NCBI GenBank assembly: GCA_945919375.1 | Contig: CAMEJD010000001.1 | Location: 62,001-126,000 of the forward strand | DNA from: an uncultured Clostridia bacterium | GTDB taxonomy: Bacteria; Bacillota; Clostridia; Christensenellales; UBA1242 | Length of the DNA: 64,000 nucleotides | Direction: 5' to 3' | The notes under the pieces: model-generated | Seen by the model: the letters and a program-made list of their open reading frames with translations, nothing else | What the model was told of the DNA's origin: nothing | Database searches by the model: none | Made by a program: the position numbers and the translations under genes | In this document: piece by piece, positions 27,262 to 32,899 of the stretch | How the letters are laid out: the number at the start of each line of letters is the position of its first letter | Numbering within the stretch: the stretch's first letter is position 1

Positions 27262-29143
<1,882 letters not shown>

Positions 29144-29195: not shown

Positions 29196-29280
29196 AAAAC
29201 TTGCCTTATTTTGCATATGTTGTCAATTTTTGACATAAGATTTAGTAGGTTTTCATCAAAAATGATAACTAGCAAGTTTT
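29196..29280. repeat. Long-range inverted repeat in the groES divergent intergenic region
   Basis: AAAACTTGC (29196-29204) and GCAAGTTTT (29272-29280) enclosing TGTCAATTTTTGACA and TCATCAAAAATGA dyads. Confidence 0.55.
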
Positions 29281-29296
29281 GGGAGTTCAAGAAAGT

Positions 29297-30064
29297 ATGA
29301 CAAAAAATTTTAGTTCCAGCAGAAAATCAAGATTTTTTTCTATATTTTTTATGCTAATTTCATTTGCTTTGTGCGTAAGCCTTGCCGGAGTATTTTCAAG
29401 TTTAATAACCGTTGGTGGATTTTCTAATATAACGAGTGGCGATGCAAAAAGTTCAGCCTTTGTTGTTTATGCTGTAAGTTTATACAAAACACAAACAAAA
29501 GCACAAGCTAGAGAAATGAGTGAAGTTGCCATGCATAAAAATGGTGCAGGATATATTTTTCAAGATGACGAAGCATTTTATGTTTTGGCATCTTGCTACG
29601 AAAATAAATCCGATGCAGAAAAAGTTGTTGCAAACTTAAAAGAAAACGGAGTTGCAAGTTCAATAAAAGACCTAAACTTTGATGAAATTTTGGTAAAATC
29701 AAAAATGACAGAGCAAGAAAAAACAGTGCTTATTAAGGCACTGTCATCATTTAAGGCGTTATATAAAAAATTATACGATTTGTCTGTTTCTATTGATACA
29801 AAACTATTAACCGAAATTCAGTCAAAAGTTTTACTTAATGATATAATTTCCGAGCAAAACAGAATTCAAACCAATTTTGAAACAATTTTTAATAGCAAAC
29901 TAACTTCCACTTTGCTTGAAATAAAACTTTCACTTTCCAACACAAAAAATATACTAAACAACCTTGCAGATTTTTCTTCAATAGACATTCCCTACACTTC
30001 ACAAGTAAAAAACACGTATTTTCAAGTTTTGTTTGAATATAAATCACTTTCCTCAAAAATATAA
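29297..30064 (+). CDS. Membrane-anchored protein with SPOR-like domain
   Basis: One N-terminal TM segment (FFSIFFMLISFALCVSLAGVFSSLITVGGF), then FVVYAVSLYKTQTKAQAREMSEVAMHKNGAGYIFQDDEAFYVLASCYENKSDAEKVVANLKENGVASSI (SPOR-like). ATG at 29297 preferred over TTG at 29279. Confidence 0.6.
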   Translation: MTKNFSSSRKSRFFSIFFMLISFALCVSLAGVFSSLITVGGFSNITSGDAKSSAFVVYAVSLYKTQTKAQAREMSEVAMHKNGAGYIFQDDEAFYVLASCYENKSDAEKVVANLKENGVASSIKDLNFDEILVKSKMTEQEKTVLIKALSSFKALYKKLYDLSVSIDTKLLTEIQSKVLLNDIISEQNRIQTNFETIFNSKLTSTLLEIKLSLSNTKNILNNLADFSSIDIPYTSQVKNTYFQVLFEYKSLSSKI

Positions 30065-30095
30065 AAAATTGCTCCACATTTAGAGCAATTTTTAA
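30064..30095. terminator. Bidirectional hairpin terminator
   Basis: AAAAATTGCTC-CACATTTA-GAGCAATTTTT between convergent genes. Confidence 0.75.
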
Positions 30096-30097
30096 TT

Positions 30098-32773
30098 TTA
30101 TGAGAATAGTTTTCTTACATAGTCATATGCAACAATTTGAACCATAGTTCTATTCATAGGGCTGGTAATCAAGAATGCTTGACCAACTCCTGCGGTAACA
30201 ATTGTGTCTTGCTCTTGTTGGTTAATTTCACCACTCTTACGGTAAAGTTCAACAAGGTCGTTCATATCACTTGGTGCAAGAGAGAAAATCATTGAGTATT
30301 GGCTGGCATTGATAACTGCCGTTGATTGTCTTTCAATTTCTGGAGCACCAACAAAGTCCTTAATATTTTGTGTAATAACAATTTGCATACCACCATACTT
30401 ACGAATTCTTTTTGCCATTTGTGCCATAAAGTCAAGCGCAATTGGATATTTTGGGTTAATGAACATATGGGCTTCATCAACTGCAACAATAACTTTTCTA
30501 TTTACATGATACTTTGAGTTAAAGTCTTTGTTTTTGATAATTTCGTTCATCAAATACTTAAAAATGATAAGCATTTGTGCATTTGCAATAACTTGGTTAT
30601 TATTTGCAAGCAATGATTGGAAGTTGAATGTAATAAAGTTTTCTTTTGTTTCCAAACTTGTTGGACCATTCCATAGTTTACTATTTCTTCCACCTTTTGC
30701 AAACTTTTTGATATATGTTTCAACAACGTTAAGGTTGTTTAGTACATATTGGTTTGTTTCTGTGTGTAATCTTTCAATGATATAATCATACAAATCATCA
30801 AAGGTTGGGAACTTGTCTGCCGGCATTGTTGAAAAATTTGAGTGCTCGGTTATTCCCTTTTTTTTGTAAACATCAACAACCATTGAGTTTAAAAGTTCAA
30901 ATGGGTCAGATTCAATTCCTTCCAAAATTACACGGAAAAATTGTTCCAAAAATTGTAAGTGCTGTGCAAAGGTGTCCGAACTTGAATCATTGTCGTCTTC
31001 AATTATATTTCCTTCCTCATCTTTCTTTTGAATAAGAGATGTGGTGTCATCTTGAAGTGATGTCATAACATGGAATGGGTTAATAATACCCATTTGGGAT
31101 GAACCAACATCAATAATTTTACCTTTAAGATTTATTGCAAGGTTTGTATACTCGTTTTCGGGGTCAAGAATGAACACTTTTGTGTTATCTGCCGCAAAGT
31201 TAGTCAAAAGGGTCTTTGTTGCATAAGACTTACCAGAACCAGACTTCCCGATAATCATCATATTTGAGTTTACTCTTTCACGATTTCTTGCAAAAAAGTC
31301 TACAAATACCGGGAACTCATTATCTCCAATATAAAAACCATTTGGGTCTTGAAGTGCCCCAGAGATAAATGGGAAAATTGCCGCCATACTTGTTGTTGGA
31401 ATTCCACGCCTGCAATCTTTTACATTGTCACGCATACTTAGGTTTGAACTAACAAATGCATCAACTTGCCTTCCAAACATTTCGGTATACTTAAAACCTT
31501 CTTGTCTTAATATTGCTCTAACTTCTTTTCTTGCTGGATCTTCACATGTGATAAATACATTACAATCAAAAAGTTGTTCGTTGTTATTTTTCAAACTAAC
31601 AAGCAAATTTTGAAGAGTTTCAAGGTGAGTTTCATTTTCAATTTGTTTACTTGTTGAACCTGTACGGGCAAACTTTCCTTCCATTTCCATTATAGCTTTG
31701 TCAATTGCCTTTTCCGATTCGTATTTCTTTTGTGGTTTTATTTTTGTGACAACTTTTGTACGGTCAAGTGTGTAGAATGACGCACCCCACGCATCTGGCA
31801 CTTGAATTGGGTAATCTGCAATTACAAATTGTCTGTATGGTTTGTTATCAATTAAAACCTTTCCCGCCTGAAACTTAACTTTTTTTGGTGCAACCCAGTT
31901 GAAATATTGGTTCATTGGAATTGCATCAAGTTCTCTTTGGTCAAATTCCTTTCCATACATTGCTTTCATAAAAATAAGCAAATCTTTTCCTGTAAGGACT
32001 TTTGATGTTATTGGTGTTACTGCTTGAATCAATGTTGTTACAATACCATTTACTGTGTTTTCCAAAATTTCTCTATCTTTGTCAAAAACTACCATATAAA
32101 AATAATCTTTGTAAATCTTGTCTTGACGATTTCTTCTTTCCATTTGAGAAACACGTTCTTCAAAAACACCCGCTCTTACTTCAACTTCTTCCTTTGTAAT
32201 TTCGCCTTCGTACATAAGTTCCATAAGATTATCGTACTTTTTGTCTTCGGCATAAATGTAGTTATCTAGAACCATTGCCTTGTTTAACTTGATTATTGAT
32301 GCAGTTTGGTCTTCATTTAATCTACGCAAAGCATTTGCAAAAGTATTTATACACATATCCCTTTTGTATTCATTAAGCAAACTAAATACAATAGGTTGGA
32401 TTTCAATTACTTGTGCATAATACTCCTTAAAATCAATAAATCTATCTTGATAAAGACCGTTAAATGGAATCAACTCTTCAATTGGAGCATTTCCTTTAAC
32501 CTTTTTTTGTGAGTATTTTTTTTGTTGAGCAAAAAATCTGAACAAATACCCAAGAGTTTGATATAACCTCATATTGTCAGAAATTTTGAAAAATAAAGAA
32601 ATTACGATTGCACACCAAGCAATGCCTATCCAGTAGTTTAGTCCACTCGCAAAATTACTTAAGAAAAACCCTAATGCTCCAGCAACACCAATCATACCAA
32701 AGATAATATCACCCAAGGTAACATTTTTTACAATCTCAATTTTTACGTTTGTTTTTCTTGGAATAATTCTCAT
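30098..32773 (-). CDS. VirB4/TraE-like conjugation ATPase with N-terminal PrgI-like membrane segment
   Basis: 891 aa; Walker A MMIIGKSGSGKSYATKTLL, Walker B KVIVAVDEAHMFINP; N-terminal two-TM region (GDIIFGMIGVAGALGFFLSNFASGLNYWIGIAWCAIVISLFF). Confidence 0.88.
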   Translation of the reverse strand: MRIIPRKTNVKIEIVKNVTLGDIIFGMIGVAGALGFFLSNFASGLNYWIGIAWCAIVISLFFKISDNMRLYQTLGYLFRFFAQQKKYSQKKVKGNAPIEELIPFNGLYQDRFIDFKEYYAQVIEIQPIVFSLLNEYKRDMCINTFANALRRLNEDQTASIIKLNKAMVLDNYIYAEDKKYDNLMELMYEGEITKEEVEVRAGVFEERVSQMERRNRQDKIYKDYFYMVVFDKDREILENTVNGIVTTLIQAVTPITSKVLTGKDLLIFMKAMYGKEFDQRELDAIPMNQYFNWVAPKKVKFQAGKVLIDNKPYRQFVIADYPIQVPDAWGASFYTLDRTKVVTKIKPQKKYESEKAIDKAIMEMEGKFARTGSTSKQIENETHLETLQNLLVSLKNNNEQLFDCNVFITCEDPARKEVRAILRQEGFKYTEMFGRQVDAFVSSNLSMRDNVKDCRRGIPTTSMAAIFPFISGALQDPNGFYIGDNEFPVFVDFFARNRERVNSNMMIIGKSGSGKSYATKTLLTNFAADNTKVFILDPENEYTNLAINLKGKIIDVGSSQMGIINPFHVMTSLQDDTTSLIQKKDEEGNIIEDDNDSSSDTFAQHLQFLEQFFRVILEGIESDPFELLNSMVVDVYKKKGITEHSNFSTMPADKFPTFDDLYDYIIERLHTETNQYVLNNLNVVETYIKKFAKGGRNSKLWNGPTSLETKENFITFNFQSLLANNNQVIANAQMLIIFKYLMNEIIKNKDFNSKYHVNRKVIVAVDEAHMFINPKYPIALDFMAQMAKRIRKYGGMQIVITQNIKDFVGAPEIERQSTAVINASQYSMIFSLAPSDMNDLVELYRKSGEINQQEQDTIVTAGVGQAFLITSPMNRTMVQIVAYDYVRKLFS

Positions 32774-32863
32774 AAATTGTCCCCTAATATAATATTCTAC
32801 CTAAATATTACTACATTTTTCATAAAAATAAAAACAAATAACAAAATTATTTAAAAAATGTGT

Positions 32864-32899
32864 AAAAAAATACCAAGAGAAATTCTCTTGGTATTTTTG
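32864..32899. terminator. rpmF terminator
   Basis: AAATACCAAGAGAAATTCTCTTGGTATTTTTGT. Confidence 0.8.

Follow-up and report, generated by a model that had tools for sequence, protein, structure and literature searches.

The subject of this analysis is a VirB4-type ATPase gene at positions 30,098 to 32,773 of a 64,000-nucleotide stretch of DNA (hereafter the window) from an uncultured Clostridia bacterium of the family UBA1242. At genome scale the gene is not an orphan: it belongs to a split type IV secretion system (T4SS), which is a core trait of the family, and it is under strong purifying selection. In our judgement it probably encodes the VirB4 motor of a resident T4SS that translocates protein and serves contact with partner cells, and the best explanation of the system's origin is one ancestral domestication, by which a conjugation module like that of the mollicute integrative and conjugative elements (ICEs) became a resident T4SS without a relaxase. 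A first-pass annotation, made from the window alone, had described an isolated VirB4 and saw in it either part of an unlinked secretion system or a motor domesticated for some new role. It held that patchy distribution, decay or nearby ICE genes would speak against these readings, and proposed to look at the phylogeny relative to ICE VirB4s, the conservation of the rpmF–virB4 neighbourhood, dN/dS across relatives and co-occurrence with partner genes.

The gene and its immediate surroundings comprise the following features:
30098..32773, minus strand: virB4, a T4SS ATPase of the Mbov_0397 type; complete open reading frame with an ATG start, 891 aa
31226..31249, minus strand: Walker A motif GKSGSGKS, residues 509-516, read in the VirB4 translation
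30461..30487, minus strand: Walker B motif VAVDEAHMF, residues 763-771, from the 4AG5 alignment
32582..32719, minus strand: two-helix N-terminal membrane segment, residues 19-64, VirB3/PrgI-like by topology only
32781..32785, minus strand: ribosome-binding site AGGGG, 7 nt before the ATG, read from the sequence
32794..32823, minus strand: possible sigma-70 promoter, ATGAAA-18-TAGAAT, 9/12; weak, such sites being no commoner than in shuffles
32866..32898, no strand: inverted repeat with T-tracts, terminator between rpmF and virB4
30064..30093, no strand: inverted repeat with T-tracts, bidirectional terminator between virB4 and the convergent gene at 29279-30064

The description of the product as a complete 891-aa VirB4 ATPase with both Walker motifs was borne out by the reading frame and by three comparisons. 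The protein matches Pfam P-loop_TraG (E 1e-19), its motor domain (residues 473-885) aligns with the VirB4 crystal structure 4AG5 (E 1e-48), and the NCBIfam model NF045975 (Mbov_0397 VirB4) covers it over the full length (E 3e-171) with 571 bits, just under the curated cut-off of 590 bits. Walker A is kept in all 32 core VirB4s examined. At the N-terminus, two hydrophobic helices are present as annotated, but their identification as PrgI found no support from Pfam PrgI (PF12666), which gives no match; since the Mbov_0397 model spans this segment, the label "PrgI-like" rests on topology and on that model. The terminators annotated on both sides were recovered as the two inverted repeats listed above, which together with the good ribosome-binding site fit a monocistronic unit. 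The convergent neighbour, annotated as a SPOR protein, matches the SPOR domain weakly (E 0.19, below the cut-off). Within the window, queries for VirB6, VirB2, VirD4, MobL, integrase and ParA gave zero matches, and the longest direct repeat flanking the gene is 15 nt and lies inside two genes, which does not delimit an ICE. The base composition of virB4 is similar to that of the host (GC 0.334 vs 0.318).

The partners that are missing from the window were found elsewhere in the same genome (G000; 1.16 Mb in 26 contigs, 96.8% complete), so the annotated absence of partners holds for the window and fails for the genome. G000 was examined by profile searches and by reading of selected stretches; in addition, the flanks of virB4 in relatives were clustered, and profiles of those proteins were run against it. 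The genes recovered were:
G000 C5:68151-69938: VirB6, profile E 1e-35
G000 C5:70190-70444: VirB2-type pilin, PF18895 E 8e-9, Mbov_0395
G000 C5:70918-72873: VirD4 coupling ATPase, PF02534 E 1e-54, CD1115 family above cut-off
G000 C5:73090-80547 (L167:591-8048): surface protein of 2,485 aa, with a signal peptide and one C-terminal membrane helix
G000 C7:48338-50116: c9, a variable large protein

The first four form a cluster at 68-81 kb of contig C5, in which VirB6, the pilin and VirD4 are directly followed by the surface protein. VirB6 matches the NCBIfam models MMCAP2_0566 (E 3e-22) and Mbov_0396 (E 3e-14), both below cut-off; its predicted structure has a mean pLDDT of 72, and the best PDB matches by Foldseek include several R388 VirB6 chains, none of them significant. 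The VirD4 P-loop, GTTGxGK, is present in 5/5 alignment rows. The surface protein has type I membrane topology, contains no Pfam domains and is 46-50% identical within the genus. By profile comparison it is homologous to ICE proteins encoded at the same position and to counterparts in other genera.

The distribution of the system was surveyed in 147 UBA1242 genomes from 38 genera, each at least 90% complete and about 1 Mb in size; these are fragmentary assemblies, nearly all metagenome-assembled where the origin is recorded. VirB4 was found in 142 and VirD4 in 145 of them, with all 38 genera represented. G013, a member of the window genus that has no VirB4, also lacks c9, the neighbour of VirB4 in sister genomes, a pattern that a gap in the assembly would give. 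In other families, full-length relatives occur in only 3/24 genomes, and those three sit in ICE-like clusters with ParA and a MobL-type relaxase, in part also with integrase and SSB.

The core copies also share one ancestry. In the maximum-likelihood VirB4 tree, 32 core copies are split from 5 ICE copies by a branch with support 100/99, and the ICE side includes second copies from G020 and G028, two genomes that have a core copy as well. Across 28 genomes (outgroup rows left out), the distances of VirB4 are correlated with those of VirD4 at r = 0.95 (p about 0.0005), despite the different loci of the two genes in many of these; the correlation between VirB4 and GroEL distances is r = 0.78 (p about 0.0005). 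Within the genus, virB4 has a median dN/dS of 0.047, compared with 0.084 for virD4 and 0.152 for groEL. The simplest reading is one old acquisition that would have been vertically inherited and kept. The partners on contig C5 and the correlated distances bear out the first reading of the first-pass annotation, an unlinked secretion system, and none of the warning signs it named (patchiness, decay, ICE genes nearby) holds for this copy. GroEL itself (window 27262-28851) diverges faster than VirB4 in the genus, with approximately 73% vs 86% identity to G000; it was not found in G020 (95% complete), G025 (93%) and G034 (84%), and is only 35-38% identical in G019, G022 and G030.

Gene order indicates how the split may have come about. 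In several genera, VirD4, a small pilin, a large lipoprotein, VirB6, VirB4 and a large variable protein stand in a single row. Within the window genus, VirB6, the pilin, VirD4 and the surface protein remain together, and virB4 is placed after rpoA-rplQ in sister genomes, followed by c9 (roughly 600 aa). In the window genome, c9 is on contig C7 and virB4 has rpmF on one side and the groES region on the other. Since sister genomes keep virB4 between rpoA-rplQ and c9, it was probably virB4 that moved in the window lineage. In another clade, a lipoprotein exceeding 3,300 aa (L060 12633-22667 and about 40 further loci) starts within approximately 260 nt of the virB4 end. This protein (c3) was considered as a relative of the C5 surface protein and rejected, the two being unrelated by comparison. 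In one genus group, a probably helical protein of 78-84 aa (c34; L105 15048-15302 and similar) is conserved behind the variable gene that follows virB4 and could be a chaperone.

Comparison with known systems places these parts closest to the mollicute ICEs, exemplified by ICEA of Mycoplasma agalactiae: the UBA1242 VirB4 is closest to Mbov_0397, VirB6 to Mbov_0396/MMCAP2_0566 and the pilin to Mbov_0395, although VirB4 and VirB6 score below the curated cut-offs. In contrast to the mollicute element, the UBA1242 system has no transposase/integrase or linked relaxase, and it is scattered on the chromosome, near-universal in the family and vertically inherited. The MobL-type ICEs of the same order (G037, G040 and G043, and the second copies in G020 and G028) resemble it in encoding VirD4, a giant surface protein, VirB2, VirB6 and VirB4 in one row. 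They differ in carrying a MobL-type relaxase, integrase, ParA and SSB, and in having VirB4s of a separate group; in the G020 ICE stretch that was read, a MobL-type relaxase was not found. The T4SS of Rickettsia is a diderm system of an unrelated lineage. Its genes resemble those of UBA1242 in being dispersed over the chromosome of a genome-reduced lineage (PMC12102498).

A lineage-wide, chromosomal and mostly relaxase-less T4SS with a VirB2-like pilin is known from the monoderm Patescibacteria (Saccharimonadia), of which one species cannot grow epibiotically without it (PMC12102498, PMC12857230). The UBA1242 T4SS is likewise chromosomal, near-universal in a reduced-genome lineage and mostly without a relaxase, and the hosts share genome reduction and, as proposed for UBA1242, partner dependence. 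The systems belong to different phyla, and the UBA1242 system differs in that its VirB4 has an N-terminal membrane segment of its own and a giant surface protein is linked to VirD4; no VirB3-VirB4 fusions have been found in Patescibacteria (PMC12102498, PMC12857230). The VirB4 tree comprises core UBA1242 and ICE copies. In Streptococcus suis, a Gram-positive bacterium, the 89K T4SS is reported to export protein (PMC12857230), and protein cargo is therefore possible for a Gram-positive T4SS. The 89K system differs from that of UBA1242 in being island-borne and strain-specific, with a canonical VirB1/3/4/6/8 set.

On these grounds, a Mbov_0397/CD1115-type conjugative element probably shed its genes for relaxase, integrase and partition close to the root of the family and turned into a resident system. 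In this system, the surface protein and the pilin would bind the partner cell, VirB4 and VirD4 would drive assembly and load the substrate, and VirB6 would form the inner-membrane channel. The part in cell contact is suggested because the surface protein is homologous to its ICE counterparts and a surface-exposed protein is essential for transfer in ICEA of M. agalactiae (PMC6030558). The most likely cargo would be protein, with c9 and other quickly diverging large proteins whose genes adjoin virB4 as candidates, judged from position and rate. The large genes adjoining virB4 encode soluble proteins or lipoproteins that change fast: c9 shows approximately 30% identity within the genus against 86% for VirB4, and the lipoprotein of more than 3,300 aa in the other clade 35% against 77% for VirB4. 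For c9, whose predicted model has a mean pLDDT of 75, no relative was found by Pfam, NCBIfam or Foldseek, and no homology to the large post-virB4 proteins of other genera was detected.

Protein delivery would form part of the partner-dependent lifestyle proposed for UBA1242. Members of the family are common in animal guts and lack pathways for amino acids, nucleotides and lipids; they have been described as probable obligate symbionts or parasites that would draw partner metabolites via unknown intercellular connections, for which no apparatus has been named (PMC12306168). A literature search limited to open-licence papers found no report of a T4SS in UBA1242. It is this lifestyle, together with the Patescibacterial precedent (PMC12102498, PMC12857230), that makes a T4SS for partner contact our favoured reading.

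The main rival is that the resident system is still conjugative, with relaxases supplied in trans by small mobilisable elements that move their DNA via the core VirD4/VirB proteins. A PF03432 relaxase was not found in G000, though this model misses MobL, and neither PF03432 nor MobL relaxases occur in the core clusters read, which to that extent lack the linked relaxase of an ICE. A profile search found MobL relaxases in 38/147 genomes (26%) and 14/38 genera. The free-standing MobL elements that were read are small units of a MobC-like gene, MobL, an excisionase and a tyrosine integrase, without a T4SS of their own. One such element is split over contig ends in the window genome:
G000 C6:71563-74053 (L241) and C20:10655-11183 (L242): MobL mobilisable element with tyrosine integrase and excisionase

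Hence, while the core system has no linked relaxase, mobilisable elements that might use it are close at hand. MobL elements lacking a T4SS are found where the core copy is the sole VirB4/VirD4 of the genome (G024, G026, G033 and the window genome), and the core VirD4 is in the CD1115 conjugation family and keeps its P-loop. On the other hand, the machine is present in 142-145 of 147 genomes, far more than carry MobL; among the places listed where MobL directly abuts virD4, that virD4 is the longer ICE-type copy; and a helper of selfish elements is not expected to be near-universal under a dN/dS of 0.05. Conjugation in trans is therefore unlikely, though it deserves to be taken seriously.

Several points weigh against a protein-translocating machine for partner contact. 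MobL mobilisable elements are present in a quarter of the genomes, including G000, so some DNA transfer may still take place, and the relaxase searches covered only PF03432 and MobL. Neither VirB8 nor VirB1 (a cell-wall hydrolase) was recognised by Pfam or NCBIfam in a search confined to the C5 cluster, so that the machine may lack parts or contain some that escape recognition. The cargo is conjectural: the predicted fold of c9 resembles none that is known, and in the window genome c9 no longer stands next to virB4. Finally, GroEL is a poor species clock in UBA1242, and the evidence as a whole rests on metagenome assemblies.

Other explanations fare less well than conjugation. A ComB-like T4SS might import environmental or partner DNA as a source of nucleotides, and such import is compatible with a system that is free of relaxases. 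ComB is a diderm precedent that operates without VirD4, whereas in the family VirD4 is as conserved as VirB4. Even with the lack of nucleotide synthesis in UBA1242 (PMC12306168) counting in its favour, DNA uptake appears improbable. The notion of VirB4 as a motor domesticated on its own for envelope work, with no relation to the C5 genes, draws on the fact that virB4 has a locus and a transcription unit to itself in the window genome; this notion is rejected as very improbable, given the partners in the same genome, the single cluster formed by the same genes in other genera and the correlated evolution of VirB4 and VirD4. The domestication that had been suspected of the motor is thus supported for the whole machine and not for VirB4 alone. 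That virB4 is a decaying ICE remnant or a recently acquired, functionless island gene is scarcely credible, for although its sequence family is that of ICE ATPases, same-type ICE copies circulate in the order and the gene has moved relative to sister genomes, the family copy is full length, near-universal, confined to one clade, host-like in GC and under purifying selection.

The results illustrate that a VirB4 whose neighbourhood marks it as an orphan can be part of a system that is split yet otherwise recognisable. For the biology of UBA1242, the favoured reading of a T4SS for partner contact makes this near-universal, relaxase-free machine a concrete candidate for the intercellular connection of the family. 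If it is that connection, monoderm bacteria would have domesticated conjugation machines for a life with partners on at least two occasions. More tentatively, and with somewhat less than even confidence, we suggest that an entire genome-reduced family of Clostridia independently converted a conjugation apparatus into an organelle that it cannot do without and by which it lives on or from other cells. The giant surface protein would then serve for contact and large proteins peculiar to each lineage would be the cargo, making the system the Firmicutes equivalent of the machine used by Patescibacterial epibionts.
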